Source: Synergistaceae bacterium
GTDB taxonomy: Bacteria > Synergistota > Synergistia > Synergistales > Synergistaceae
Assembly (NCBI GenBank): GCA_012728235.1
Contig: JAAYFL010000029.1
Location: 1 to 39,039 of the forward strand
Direction of reading: 5' to 3'
Length of the DNA: 39,039 nt
Below the pieces are notes generated by a model. It was not told the DNA's origin, did not search any database, and saw only the letters and a list, made by a program, of their open reading frames with translations. A program made the translations under genes and the position numbers. Below, piece after piece: positions 33,608-37,117 of the stretch; within the stretch, counting starts at the first letter, position 1; every line of letters starts with the position of its first letter.

Positions 33608-33705
33608 CTTTCTATGATTCTATGATTTAATTCGATTTTTTATAAGAACATATTCTTTTTAAAAATTTAATATGAATGAGGGATTGATGAGAGGAGTTAG
33701 ATTGT

Positions 33706-35184
33706 TTGAACGTTATTACAGAGAAAACAAAAGAAGTTTTTTTTGCTGTATTGCCTATAACGCTAATTGTAACTTTTCTTAACTTTACAATTACGCCGCT
33801 TGGAATGCATCTTTACTTAAGATTTTTGATAGGGGCTTTTTTTATAGTTGTAGGGCTCACTGTTTTCCTTTTGGGTGTTGATATGGGGGTAACGCCAATC
33901 GGTACTCGTATGGGAACGGCAGTAGCAAAAAGCAACAGCGTAGCGATAGTTATTATAGCAGGCCTTGTATTGGGTTTTGCTATCTCTGTTGCGGAGCCGG
34001 ATCTTCATATTCTTGCACAACAAGTAAGAATGGTTACGGCAAATAGCATCGGAAAAGCAAGCATCATACTTGTCGTCTCGGTGGGCATCGCATTCGTAAT
34101 GGCATTAGGATTCGTTCGAATAGTATTCAATATTGCATTGAATAAGCTTTTAACCGCCCTCTATTTTATCATCCTGATGTTGGGAATTTTTACCCCCAAA
34201 GAATTTTTAGCGATAGCTTTTGATGCATCCGGTGCCACAACTGGCGCAATAACCACTCCATTTATGCTGGCCCTAGCCTTGGGTATATCGTCTTTAAAAA
34301 AGGACAGCAAATCTTCTGAAGAAGACAGTTTCGGCCTAGTAGCCATTGCATCAGCCGGAGCCATTATTGCAGTCATGGTGATGGGAATACTTTCTAAAAC
34401 AGAAAGCCTAGAAGGTACCCTCCCTGCGACAGACCTTTTGTCATCCTCTCTGATGGGCCCCTTCCTCGAAAACGCCCCTGTTATTTTAGGCGAGGTTATT
34501 TTGGCGCTTCTGCCGGTAACTCTTATTTTCGCAATATTTCAAAAGATTTCATTTAAACTCTCAAAAAGAACTGTAAGCAGAATAGTTTTGGGAATCGTAT
34601 TTTCCCTAATAGGACTTGTTCTCTTTCTGACTGGAGTAAATGGAGGATTTATGGAAGTCGGAAGTATAATAGGAAATAAACTCGCTCTTTTTGATAATAA
34701 ATATTATCTGATAGGTATAGGCTTTATTTTAGGATTCGTTACCATTCTCGCAGAACCGGCTGTTTATGTTCTCACTCAGCAAATTGAAGAGGTCACCAGT
34801 GGTTATGTCAGAAGAAGTTTGGTAATGGGCGCTCTGAGTTTGGGTGTGGGAAGCGCTGTGGCGTTGGCAATGATTAATATTTTAAGTCCGCAAATAGAGC
34901 TTTGGCACTTTTTGCTTCCGGGCTATATCATTTCTATAGCATTGGCATATTATGTTCCGGGACTTTTTGTCGGAATATCTTTTGACTCAGGTGGGGTGGC
35001 ATCTGGTCCCATGACAGCCACTTTCATATTAGCATTCGCTCATGGAGCAGCCAATGCCATTGAAGGTGCAAGTGTTTTAACGGACGGCTTTGGCGTTATT
35101 GCCATGGTTGCTCTCAGTCCTATGATCGCATTACAGATTTTGGGAGTATTCTTTAGAATTAAATCGCCGAGCAGGAGGAGTTAG
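33706..35184 (+). CDS. DUF1538 family membrane protein with two homologous halves
   Basis: 492-aa polytopic inner-membrane protein with about 12-14 hydrophobic segments. It is an internal duplication. AEPDLHILAQQVRMVT in the first half matches AEPAVYVLTQQIEEVT in the second, and FDASGATTGAITTPFMLALALG matches FDSGGVASGPMTATFILAFAHG. Such conserved half-site loops are typical of transporters with inverted or repeated folds, and an ion or small-molecule transport role is likely, but no substrate is established to my knowledge. It starts with TTG at 33706, 8 bases after GAGGAG. The double-PII gene begins 3 bases after its stop, strongly suggesting that the channel is controlled by a PII-like protein. 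Confidence 0.88.
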   Translation: MNVITEKTKEVFFAVLPITLIVTFLNFTITPLGMHLYLRFLIGAFFIVVGLTVFLLGVDMGVTPIGTRMGTAVAKSNSVAIVIIAGLVLGFAISVAEPDLHILAQQVRMVTANSIGKASIILVVSVGIAFVMALGFVRIVFNIALNKLLTALYFIILMLGIFTPKEFLAIAFDASGATTGAITTPFMLALALGISSLKKDSKSSEEDSFGLVAIASAGAIIAVMVMGILSKTESLEGTLPATDLLSSSLMGPFLENAPVILGEVILALLPVTLIFAIFQKISFKLSKRTVSRIVLGIVFSLIGLVLFLTGVNGGFMEVGSIIGNKLALFDNKYYLIGIGFILGFVTILAEPAVYVLTQQIEEVTSGYVRRSLVMGALSLGVGSAVALAMINILSPQIELWHFLLPGYIISIALAYYVPGLFVGISFDSGGVASGPMTATFILAFAHGAANAIEGASVLTDGFGVIAMVALSPMIALQILGVFFRIKSPSRRS

Positions 35185-35187
35185 AAA

Positions 35188-35850
35188 ATGATTAATGATA
35201 ACACGGTTTTCGATCTCATTTGGGTTATTGTTAATTTTGGCAAGGGCAGCAGCGTTTTGCAAACAGCAAAGAAATGTGGCGCTACTGGAGGAACTGTTGT
35301 TCTTGCGAAGGGCACAGCCAACAGCTCTTTTATAAGCTACTTGGGACTAACAGAGATACGCAAAGAGATTGTCCTGATGGCGTGTAATAAAGAAACATCA
35401 AAATGTGTCCTTGAAACCCTTAATGAAAAATTTCAATTTGAAAAGCCAAAACATGGAATAGCCTTCACTACAGCTCTCCATACCGTTATAGGTTCAGTCG
35501 GCTGTATTTTGACAAACTCGAAAAAGCTAGAAAGAGGAGATGAATCAATGTACTGTTCAATAACCGTTATCGTTGAAAAGGGAAAAGCAGAAGATGTAGT
35601 TGACGCGGCGACCGCTGCCGGCTCAAAAGGCGGAACTATTATAAATGCAAGAGGCTCCGGTATTCACGAAACGAGTAAATTATTCTTCATGGATATCGAA
35701 CCGGAAAAAGAAATGGTCTTAATTCTCTCTGAGAAGTGTGATAGCGATGCCATCATCTCTTCAATTCGAGAAAAAATTGACATAAAAGAACCGGGAAAAG
35801 GCATAATCTTTGTTCAAGATGTCAATAAAGTCTACGGATTAGCCAAGTAA
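35188..35850 (+). CDS. Tandem PII-like regulator (two PII domains in one chain)
   Basis: 220-aa protein made of two GlnB-like ferredoxin-fold units. Domain 1 (about 8-112) has IWVIVNFGKGSSVLQTAKKCGATGGTVVLAKG and ends in HGIAFTTALHTVIG. Domain 2 (about 121-218) repeats this as SITVIVEKGKAEDVVDAATAAGSKGGTIINARG and GKGIIFVQDVNKVYG. The signature T-loop tyrosine of classical GlnB is not evident, so the ligand and modification may differ. The gene lies 3 bases after the DUF1538 membrane gene, so it probably gates that protein as GlnK gates AmtB. Between the domains AGAGGAG (35533-35539) is followed by an in-frame ATG at 35548, which could allow domain 2 to be made separately. Confidence 0.85.
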   Translation: MINDNTVFDLIWVIVNFGKGSSVLQTAKKCGATGGTVVLAKGTANSSFISYLGLTEIRKEIVLMACNKETSKCVLETLNEKFQFEKPKHGIAFTTALHTVIGSVGCILTNSKKLERGDESMYCSITVIVEKGKAEDVVDAATAAGSKGGTIINARGSGIHETSKLFFMDIEPEKEMVLILSEKCDSDAIISSIREKIDIKEPGKGIIFVQDVNKVYGLAK

Positions 35851-35984: not shown

Positions 35985-36560
35985 ATGAATGAAAATTCCA
36001 ATTGTTGGCTGTGGAAAGCAGTTTTTCTCGGCTTTGTTTTTGCCATATCGGTCCTCGTCATTAAACCGGTAGGGGTATCAACGCAATTTTCAATGGTAGG
36101 AGGAATGATACACAGTGCAGTAGATTCCTCTGTAATCACTGAAAATGCAGAGAGCAAACATGGCTACAGTAGCACAAATGCTTACTACAACAAAAGCGGT
36201 GGATCTCTTGCCAAGAACATAAAGAACCCCTTGAATTTCGCCATGGTGTTTTTACTTGCGATTCCTCTGGGTGGTTTTGTAGCCTGGTCTTTGGATCCAA
36301 AGAAAAAAACAAGCTGTCAGGTGGAGGAGATAAAAGACTCCAAGGGATTTAAAAATTTCTGTAAAAAATATTATATCCGAGAGTTTGTGGGTGGATTTAT
36401 CTTCCTCTTCGGAGCAAGGCTTGCAGACGGATGTACAAGCGGACATATGATGAGCGGCATAATGCAGGGCAGCGTGAGCGGATTCGTTTTTGCGATAGCT
36501 GTCTTTGTTGTAGCTATCCCAGTCGCCTTACTCTTTAAAAAGATGGATTGGGGGGTATAG
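35985..36560 (+). CDS. YeeE/YedE-family sulfur-compound transporter, first half
   Basis: 191-aa membrane protein with a helix at about 10-30, a hydrophilic, Ser- and Asn-rich loop (about 45-80), and three further helices. The family motif is in LADGCTSGHMMSGIMQGSVSG, with the conserved cysteine of the GCTSGH loop that in the full-length thiosulfate transporter YeeE lies on the substrate path. It is half the length of a fused YeeE. A strong AAAGGAGG lies upstream, and the second half begins 2 bases after its stop, so both halves should assemble into one carrier. Substrate could be thiosulfate or another sulfur or selenium compound. Confidence 0.85.
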   Translation: MNENSNCWLWKAVFLGFVFAISVLVIKPVGVSTQFSMVGGMIHSAVDSSVITENAESKHGYSSTNAYYNKSGGSLAKNIKNPLNFAMVFLLAIPLGGFVAWSLDPKKKTSCQVEEIKDSKGFKNFCKKYYIREFVGGFIFLFGARLADGCTSGHMMSGIMQGSVSGFVFAIAVFVVAIPVALLFKKMDWGV

Positions 36561-36562
36561 TT

Positions 36563-37117
36563 ATGAATCTTCTTATCGGTCTAATTACAGGAGCATTATT
36601 TGGTGCAGCATTATATCTTGCCGGCGTTGCATGTCCTCCTAAAATGAGGGCAACTCTAAGATTAGAGGATAATACAATCTTTAAGATTATGCTCTTCGCT
36701 TTAGGGCTCGCCACAGCTTCACTATATGTTTTTGACCTATTCAACATACTAGATTTATCGCATCTAAGCATTAAAACAATGCATTTGGGAGTAATAGTCG
36801 GTGGAATTATATTTGGTGTGGGATTCGGAATGGTCGGCTCCTGCCCCGGCACCGCAGCTGCAGCTATCGGAACCAATATCTACAAACAAGCTATTGTAAT
36901 TGTACTTGGCGGCTTTGCCGGAGCTTTGGTCTATTCACTCGTATACGAGAAAATAGCTGCAACCGGAATTTTCAATGTGTTAAATTACGGCAAACTCACT
37001 CTTTTTAATATCTCTGACAAATTCCCCTCAGTATTTAATATTGGGTATGTCGGTCTCTTGATACTTGGAATCGTGCTGATGGTTATAGGATATTTGATTC
37101 CTGTCAAGAATAAATAA
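36563..37117 (+). CDS. YeeE/YedE-family sulfur-compound transporter, second half
   Basis: 184-aa membrane protein with about five helices. Its conserved half-motif is FGVGFGMVGSCPGTAAAAIG, the counterpart of the GCTSGH loop in the preceding gene. Another cysteine is in LYLAGVACPPKMRATL. The start at 36563 follows GGGGGG and is 2 bases after the preceding stop; an in-frame ATG five codons earlier overlaps that gene and lacks a site. The two genes are a natural split pair rather than a frameshift, since each has its own start, stop and ribosome-binding site. A terminator follows. Confidence 0.85.
   Translation: MNLLIGLITGALFGAALYLAGVACPPKMRATLRLEDNTIFKIMLFALGLATASLYVFDLFNILDLSHLSIKTMHLGVIVGGIIFGVGFGMVGSCPGTAAAAIGTNIYKQAIVIVLGGFAGALVYSLVYEKIAATGIFNVLNYGKLTLFNISDKFPSVFNIGYVGLLILGIVLMVIGYLIPVKNK

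Follow-up and report, generated by a model that had tools for sequence, protein, structure and literature searches.

What does a DUF1538 membrane protein have to do with a PII protein whose gene begins three bases after its own? The question was raised by a contig of a Synergistaceae bacterium, 39,039 nucleotides long and here called the window as a whole, in which both proteins are internally duplicated. A preliminary description had read the locus as a matched two-fold design, with one PII domain per membrane half, analogous to GlnK on AmtB.

The gene pair and its duplicated products

Both genes lie on the forward strand, at 33706..35184 (492 aa, TTG start) and 35188..35850 (220 aa). The first encodes a cation/H+ antiporter homologue in which two DUF1538 halves are fused (UmpA-UmpB type), with two PF07556 matches, called the antiporter below, and the second, with two PF00543 matches, encodes the proposed regulatory subunit, the tandem PII. 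By the open reading frames of the window, they are separated by 3 bases on the same strand and share one reading frame, with a TAG between them. A Shine-Dalgarno sequence stands about 9 bases 5' of each start (GAGGAG at 33691-33696 for the antiporter and AGGAGG at 35173-35178 for the PII gene, forward strand), and from the position of the latter inside the 3' end of the antiporter gene, translation of the two is likely coupled. An Rfam search of the window and 32 related loci found no riboswitch upstream of the operon. A profile search of the assembly holding the window (1.57 Mb, 96% complete) returned a single DUF1538 gene, the antiporter, and a single PII gene, the tandem one. The closest named relatives of the antiporter come from Synergistaceae assemblies (68-71% identity). 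Adjoining the pair, at 35985-37117, two neighbouring proteins of half size correspond to the C-terminal and N-terminal portions of PF04143 (YedE/YeeE type, sulphur transport), that is, another split transporter.

Both duplications noted in the preliminary description were borne out. The antiporter matched PF07556 with 441.7 bits in total (cut-off, 22.6), one match falling to each half (226 and 228 bits); the halves are 30% identical over 226 positions (E = 8e-30; z = 28.7 versus shuffles), and each carries the AEP and FD motifs once. In the tree, the N half (33757..34392, 226.3 bits) belonged to the A/UmpA lineage and the C half (34516..35151, 228 bits) to the B/UmpB lineage; by the positive-inside rule, the N-terminus of the former is predicted to be cytosolic and the latter to have the opposite membrane orientation. 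Alignment and AlphaFold2 modelling placed AEPDLHILAQQ of the N half (33991..34023; E97 and P98 invariant) in the third transmembrane helix, with a break at residues 95-98, and FDASGATTG (34219..34245; D173 invariant) in the sixth transmembrane segment, while AEPAVYVLTQQ (34750..34782; E350, P351, and Q359 invariant) and FDSGGVASG (34981..35007; D427 invariant) occupy the third and sixth segments of the C half, respectively (all forward strand). In the antiporter model (pLDDT 87, pTM 0.87, nine helices per half), E97 and E350 sit at helix breaks, and D173 and D427 sit in short helices of the second broken segment; plasmid-derived rows were left out of the alignments used for structure prediction. 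Foldseek gave no match of this model in the PDB at E <= 0.001, nor did the antiporter profile match any PDB sequence. The tandem PII matched PF00543 twice, with 68.5 bits in total, in an N domain (35215..35490, 24.3 bits) and a C domain (35557..35838, 49.3 bits), both on the forward strand and 31% identical to each other (E = 4e-15; z = 21.4 versus shuffles).

The substrate of the membrane protein had been called unknown, a statement that has to be revised as far as its class is concerned, since DUF1538 includes UmpAB. UmpA and UmpB of Halomonas zhaodongensis, DUF1538 proteins of seven segments, form a heterodimer with pH-dependent Na+(Li+,K+)/H+ antiport activity and were functional in E. coli from a clone without any PII gene (PMC5484666). 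That report was the only experimental paper on DUF1538 found in the open-access literature. UmpAB and the antiporter share the Pfam family, seven transmembrane segments per half, and paired homologous halves, but UmpAB consists of two separate proteins rather than one fused chain, and its description makes no mention of PII (PMC5484666). With 180.1 and 126.2 bits against the NCBIfam models for UmpA and UmpB (NF041627 and NF041628), the antiporter stayed far under the equivalog cut-offs of 490 and 500 and is, by these models, a UmpAB homologue and not an equivalog; its substrate and exact cation are therefore uncertain, and it is from homology that we infer monovalent cation/H+ transport.

The orientation of the halves was judged from a charge bias, for which Lys and Arg were counted in the loops between predicted membrane crossings. 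Among 52 homologues, the mean count was 19.7 in the predicted inside loops versus 4.5 in the outside ones. The bias was +9.3 for the N halves and -6.3 for the C halves of fused antiporters (61 each), +5.5 (n = 2) and -5.8 (n = 4) for the separate A and B proteins of split pairs, and only +2.2, i.e., nearly unbiased, for ten solo half-size DUF1538 proteins. Taken with the predicted helices, these values suggest that the two halves of the antiporter are probably inverted in the membrane, and they also point to solo, antiparallel-pair, and fused forms being retained side by side in DUF1538. A family with dual-topology proteins, antiparallel pairs, and fused inverted repeats is known in DUF606, and DUF1538 shows the same evolutionary series, from dual topology through an oppositely oriented pair to a fused inverted repeat (PMC3962082). 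The two families are unrelated, however, and in DUF1538 a soluble partner has also been duplicated and fused. With its halves inverted, the antiporter would have a pseudo-two-fold axis lying in the plane of the membrane, and its halves would turn non-equivalent faces to the cytosol, so two like halves with identical cytosolic docking faces are unlikely.

Constancy of the pairing and its history

We then asked how regularly the two genes occur together. The PII gene directly followed the antiporter gene in nearly all of 80 related loci from species-level genomes, which were picked by antiporter similarity and not by the presence of PII, and of 30 Synergistota loci; further loci from Clostridia and from other classes and phyla were added to the survey. 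The genome-wide link between the families that the preliminary description had called for was found, as two clear losses of PII were seen among the roughly 190 DUF1538 loci whose downstream sequence is long enough. The 173 loci with a fused antiporter had a tandem PII (151 loci), a PII domain fused to the antiporter (9), two PII genes (3), a single PII (6), or none (4). Three of the six single cases lie at contig ends (L034, L054, and L124), one has a stop in the first domain (L075), and in two the first domain scores weakly (L132 and L149); two of the four loci without PII also lie at contig ends (L013 and L236), which leaves L164 and L166 as the clear losses. The genome of L164 holds a second DUF1538 gene, with PII. 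On reading the sequence, without a profile, the gene following the antiporter gene of L164 (G164:C23) was instead seen to resemble a CPA-type cation/H+ antiporter.

PII also accompanied 20 of the 21 split A+B loci (single in 15, two genes in 3, tandem in 2), the remaining one having none, while solo half-size DUF1538 genes had one single-domain PII at 9 of 9 loci fetched for the purpose and at another met by chance (L170). On plasmids, searching with the antiporter and with the tandem PII gave the identical nine records. The flanking genes turned out not to be conserved, the commonest family being present at 12 of 97 loci. One locus is peculiar in both proteins, L124 (G257:C41), with a long His/Gly-rich stretch after the first PII domain and a long Gly/Ala/acidic tail on the antiporter. 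Public annotation already shows DUF1538 and PII genes as neighbours; a description of the pair was not found in the open-access literature, a search outside which most subscription journals fall, so that novelty is unproven.

In a tree of concatenated halves, the membrane fusion occurred once. On the two branches adjoining the fused clade, L153 and L188, the pair is still split but two PII genes are already present, and tandem PII evolved a second time among split pairs (L203 and L207). Duplication of the PII gene therefore probably preceded fusion of the membrane halves. A domain tree, in which several deep branches were weakly supported, placed the C-terminal PII domain in a clade with the single-domain PIIs, its nearest relatives, and the N-terminal domain in a clade of its own as a divergent copy. 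Given one membrane fusion in an ancestor that probably had two PII genes, the coincidence of fused antiporter and tandem PII would be largely one inherited event.

Probable physical association and the nature of the PII partner

At nine Clostridia loci (L224-L231 and L171), a PII domain was found at the C-terminus of DUF1538 proteins of about 610-640 aa, at residues ~507-605 (548-639 in L171), with 48-75 bits in the family profile; the Pfam report for these proteins lacks it. The domain is fused at the antiporter end that is predicted to be cytosolic. Six of the nine loci have a tandem PII gene directly upstream, which gives three PII domains per antiporter, and L171 has a separate single PII downstream. 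Three domains is also the count in one PII trimer. As read from the sequences, the nine fusions are the strongest evidence in this analysis for a physical association of antiporter and PII.

For co-folding, the TAG between the genes of the window was read through, which produced one chain of 714 residues with a tether of two residues and no oligomer. The AlphaFold2 model of this chain had a pLDDT of 89.5 and a pTM of 0.85; since the antiporter alone could hardly give more than about 492/714 = 0.69, some confidence in the placement of the PII part is implied, although the two-residue tether itself constrains its position. Covariation analysis of 151 antiporter-PII pairs (mean-field, reduced alphabet; Neff of 105 for 690 columns) was uninformative, with no enrichment of cytosolic loops and with its strongest signals resembling effects of gaps or lineage. 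Pairing, fusion, and the AlphaFold model point together to direct binding of PII to the antiporter. The earlier view of the PII as dedicated to this transporter, like GlnK beside AmtB, has gained from the conservation of the pair across phyla and from the existence of covalent fusions.

The PII part of the model matched GlnK1 and other PII structures with a probability of 1.00 and TM scores by target length of 0.6-0.77. In the alignment with E. coli GlnK, G35, K58, and G89 are retained by most sequences, as are T29, G27, and F92. The T-loop is six residues shorter (residues 44-49 are absent), Y51 is replaced by L in the N domain or F in the C domain, the phosphate contacts are lost (K90 to I, R101 to G, R103 absent), and Q39 is mostly S, N, H, or E; the canonical uridylylation position has been lost along with the phosphate contacts. 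Profile searches of the 96%-complete assembly found no Amt (PF00909), no GlnD, and no second PII, and the genome has a gene for a diadenylate (c-di-AMP) cyclase. On these grounds, the partner is, by sequence, a PII-fold protein but not a canonical nitrogen PII.

These data bear on four other explanations of the pair. Docking of the tandem PII at two equivalent sites, one below each membrane half, as proposed from the example of GlnK on AmtB, would agree with the two PII domains nearly always found with fused antiporters, the one found with solo halves, and the two separate PII genes retained beside three fused antiporters (L122, L123, and L241). We consider such docking unlikely, because the halves appear inverted, with differing cytosolic faces, because two halves share one single-domain PII at 15 split A+B loci and the PII domains number three at six fusion loci, and because the membrane fusion happened once, so that the coincidence is not repeated and the matched two-fold design is not repeated evidence for matched symmetry. 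One PII domain per membrane half therefore does not hold as a rule, and a two-fold symmetry shared by the partners was dismissed as an organising principle, the halves being inverted and the copy numbers unequal. Mere co-transcription of two neighbours without physical contact is the least probable of the explanations, as the pair persists while the flanking genes vary, recurs in solo, split, and fused forms, and at nine loci has the PII domain within the antiporter polypeptide.

The other two concern what the PII senses. An ordinary nitrogen/energy sensor (ATP/ADP/2-oxoglutarate) that ties nitrogen status to ion transport would have the PII fold seen in the model and could use the adenine contacts T29, K58, and B-loop G87/G89, which are mostly kept in C-type and single domains. 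The losses of K90, R101, R103, Q39, and the T-loop tip and a genome without Amt, GlnD, or another PII make such a sensor improbable, and for these reasons nitrogen regulation was dismissed as the leading interpretation. In many Firmicutes, c-di-AMP governs potassium balance, and the PII could sense this nucleotide like the PII-like proteins PstA/DarA, a suggestion with which the cyclase gene in the genome is consistent. PstA is described as a PII-like c-di-AMP receptor (PMC4316997) and potassium uptake in S. aureus as regulated by c-di-AMP (PMC11520302). Sensing of c-di-AMP is nonetheless unlikely, as the pair is also present in two strains of Alphaproteobacteria, and Caulobacter, the control genome of that class in which the cyclase was sought, lacks it.

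Proposed mechanism and known PII-transporter systems

The reading that we favour, and regard as probable, is that the pair constitutes one module, composed of an inverted-repeat monovalent cation/H+ antiporter (DUF1538/UmpAB) and a dedicated cytosolic PII regulatory subunit that gates the antiport. By homology, the antiporter would exchange Na+ (or Li+ or K+) for H+ by alternating access between its two oppositely oriented halves, and the ion site probably includes the invariant Glu of AEP and Asp of FD..G in the broken helices. The tandem PII would dock from the cytosol, close to the C-terminal tail of the antiporter, and a change of its ligand state would adjust or block transport, sparing the ion gradients from needless drain. 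Possible triggers are an adenine nucleotide, bound in an altered manner, c-di-AMP, and ions or pH. Since UmpAB works without a PII of its own operon, PII would be dispensable for transport and, at a guess, more likely restrains or tunes it; we would also guess that its control is mainly inhibitory. E. coli encodes PIIs of its own.

DUF1538 is not the only transporter family beside which we met PII-like genes. At five loci from Clostridia and Synergistota (L172, L174, L175, L176, and L185), a different single-domain PII-like gene (~117-140 aa) adjoins a PF00999-type Na+/H+ exchanger gene, an assignment that gave 108-247 bits at the three of the five loci that were profile-tested. On this count, the PF00999 exchangers are a second, unrelated antiporter family with a putative PII-like partner of its own. 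Some Synergistota genomes (e.g., G145, G162, and G105) have PII matches in open reading frames of 575-625 aa, a length that fits ammonium transporter-PII fusions.

A broader proposal, which we put forward tentatively and as short of probable, is that PII-fold proteins are a general class of dedicated subunits of cation/proton antiporters, recruited separately by DUF1538 and PF00999 and responsive to a signal different from the canonical ATP/2-oxoglutarate state. The DUF1538 series would then run from a solo, probably dual-topology protein with a single PII, through an antiparallel pair with one and then two PII genes, to a fused antiporter with a tandem PII, and finally to a fused antiporter that contains one PII domain itself and has a tandem PII besides; these three PII domains could form one ring per antiporter. 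The known transporter targets of PII belong mainly to nitrogen and carbon metabolism (ammonium, nitrate, urea, bicarbonate), and the near-constant DUF1538-PII pairing and the fusions suggest that PII sensors control ion pumps besides these. If true, such a dedicated PII subunit of a Na+/H+ antiporter would bring ion and pH homeostasis within the reach of PII signalling, and DUF1538 would gain a testable regulatory mechanism. With its solo, antiparallel-pair, and fused forms and a duplicated soluble partner, DUF1538 is also a good test case for the evolution of inverted-repeat transporters.

The pair resembles GlnK-AmtB in that a PII-fold gene adjoins the gene of a membrane transporter to which, in the present case, binding is proposed. 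AmtB, however, is a trimeric ammonium channel, whereas the target here is a predicted inverted-repeat antiporter in a genome without Amt, and the PII is a tandem protein with a shortened T-loop and lost phosphate contacts. SbtB, the PII-like partner of the bicarbonate transporter SbtA, is likewise a regulator outside nitrogen control; that transporter is of another family, and the PII of the window is a tandem protein linked to a cation/H+ antiporter family. SbtB is treated in PMC10991534. According to PMC7726332, which cites Sant'Anna 2009, PII-NG is clustered with CzcABC/RND metal efflux. Among the surveyed loci, PII-like genes of ~98 aa overlap or abut the ends of large RND-like efflux genes at L178, L181, and L186 (possibly also at L182, L184, L187, and L177); they have a weak similarity to DUF190 and resemble the PII-NG/RND linkage. 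PII-NG shares with the PII of the window the clustering of a PII-like gene with a proton-driven cation exporter, but the transporter family is another one, and the short PII-like genes found beside RND genes of these phyla represent a sequence type of their own.
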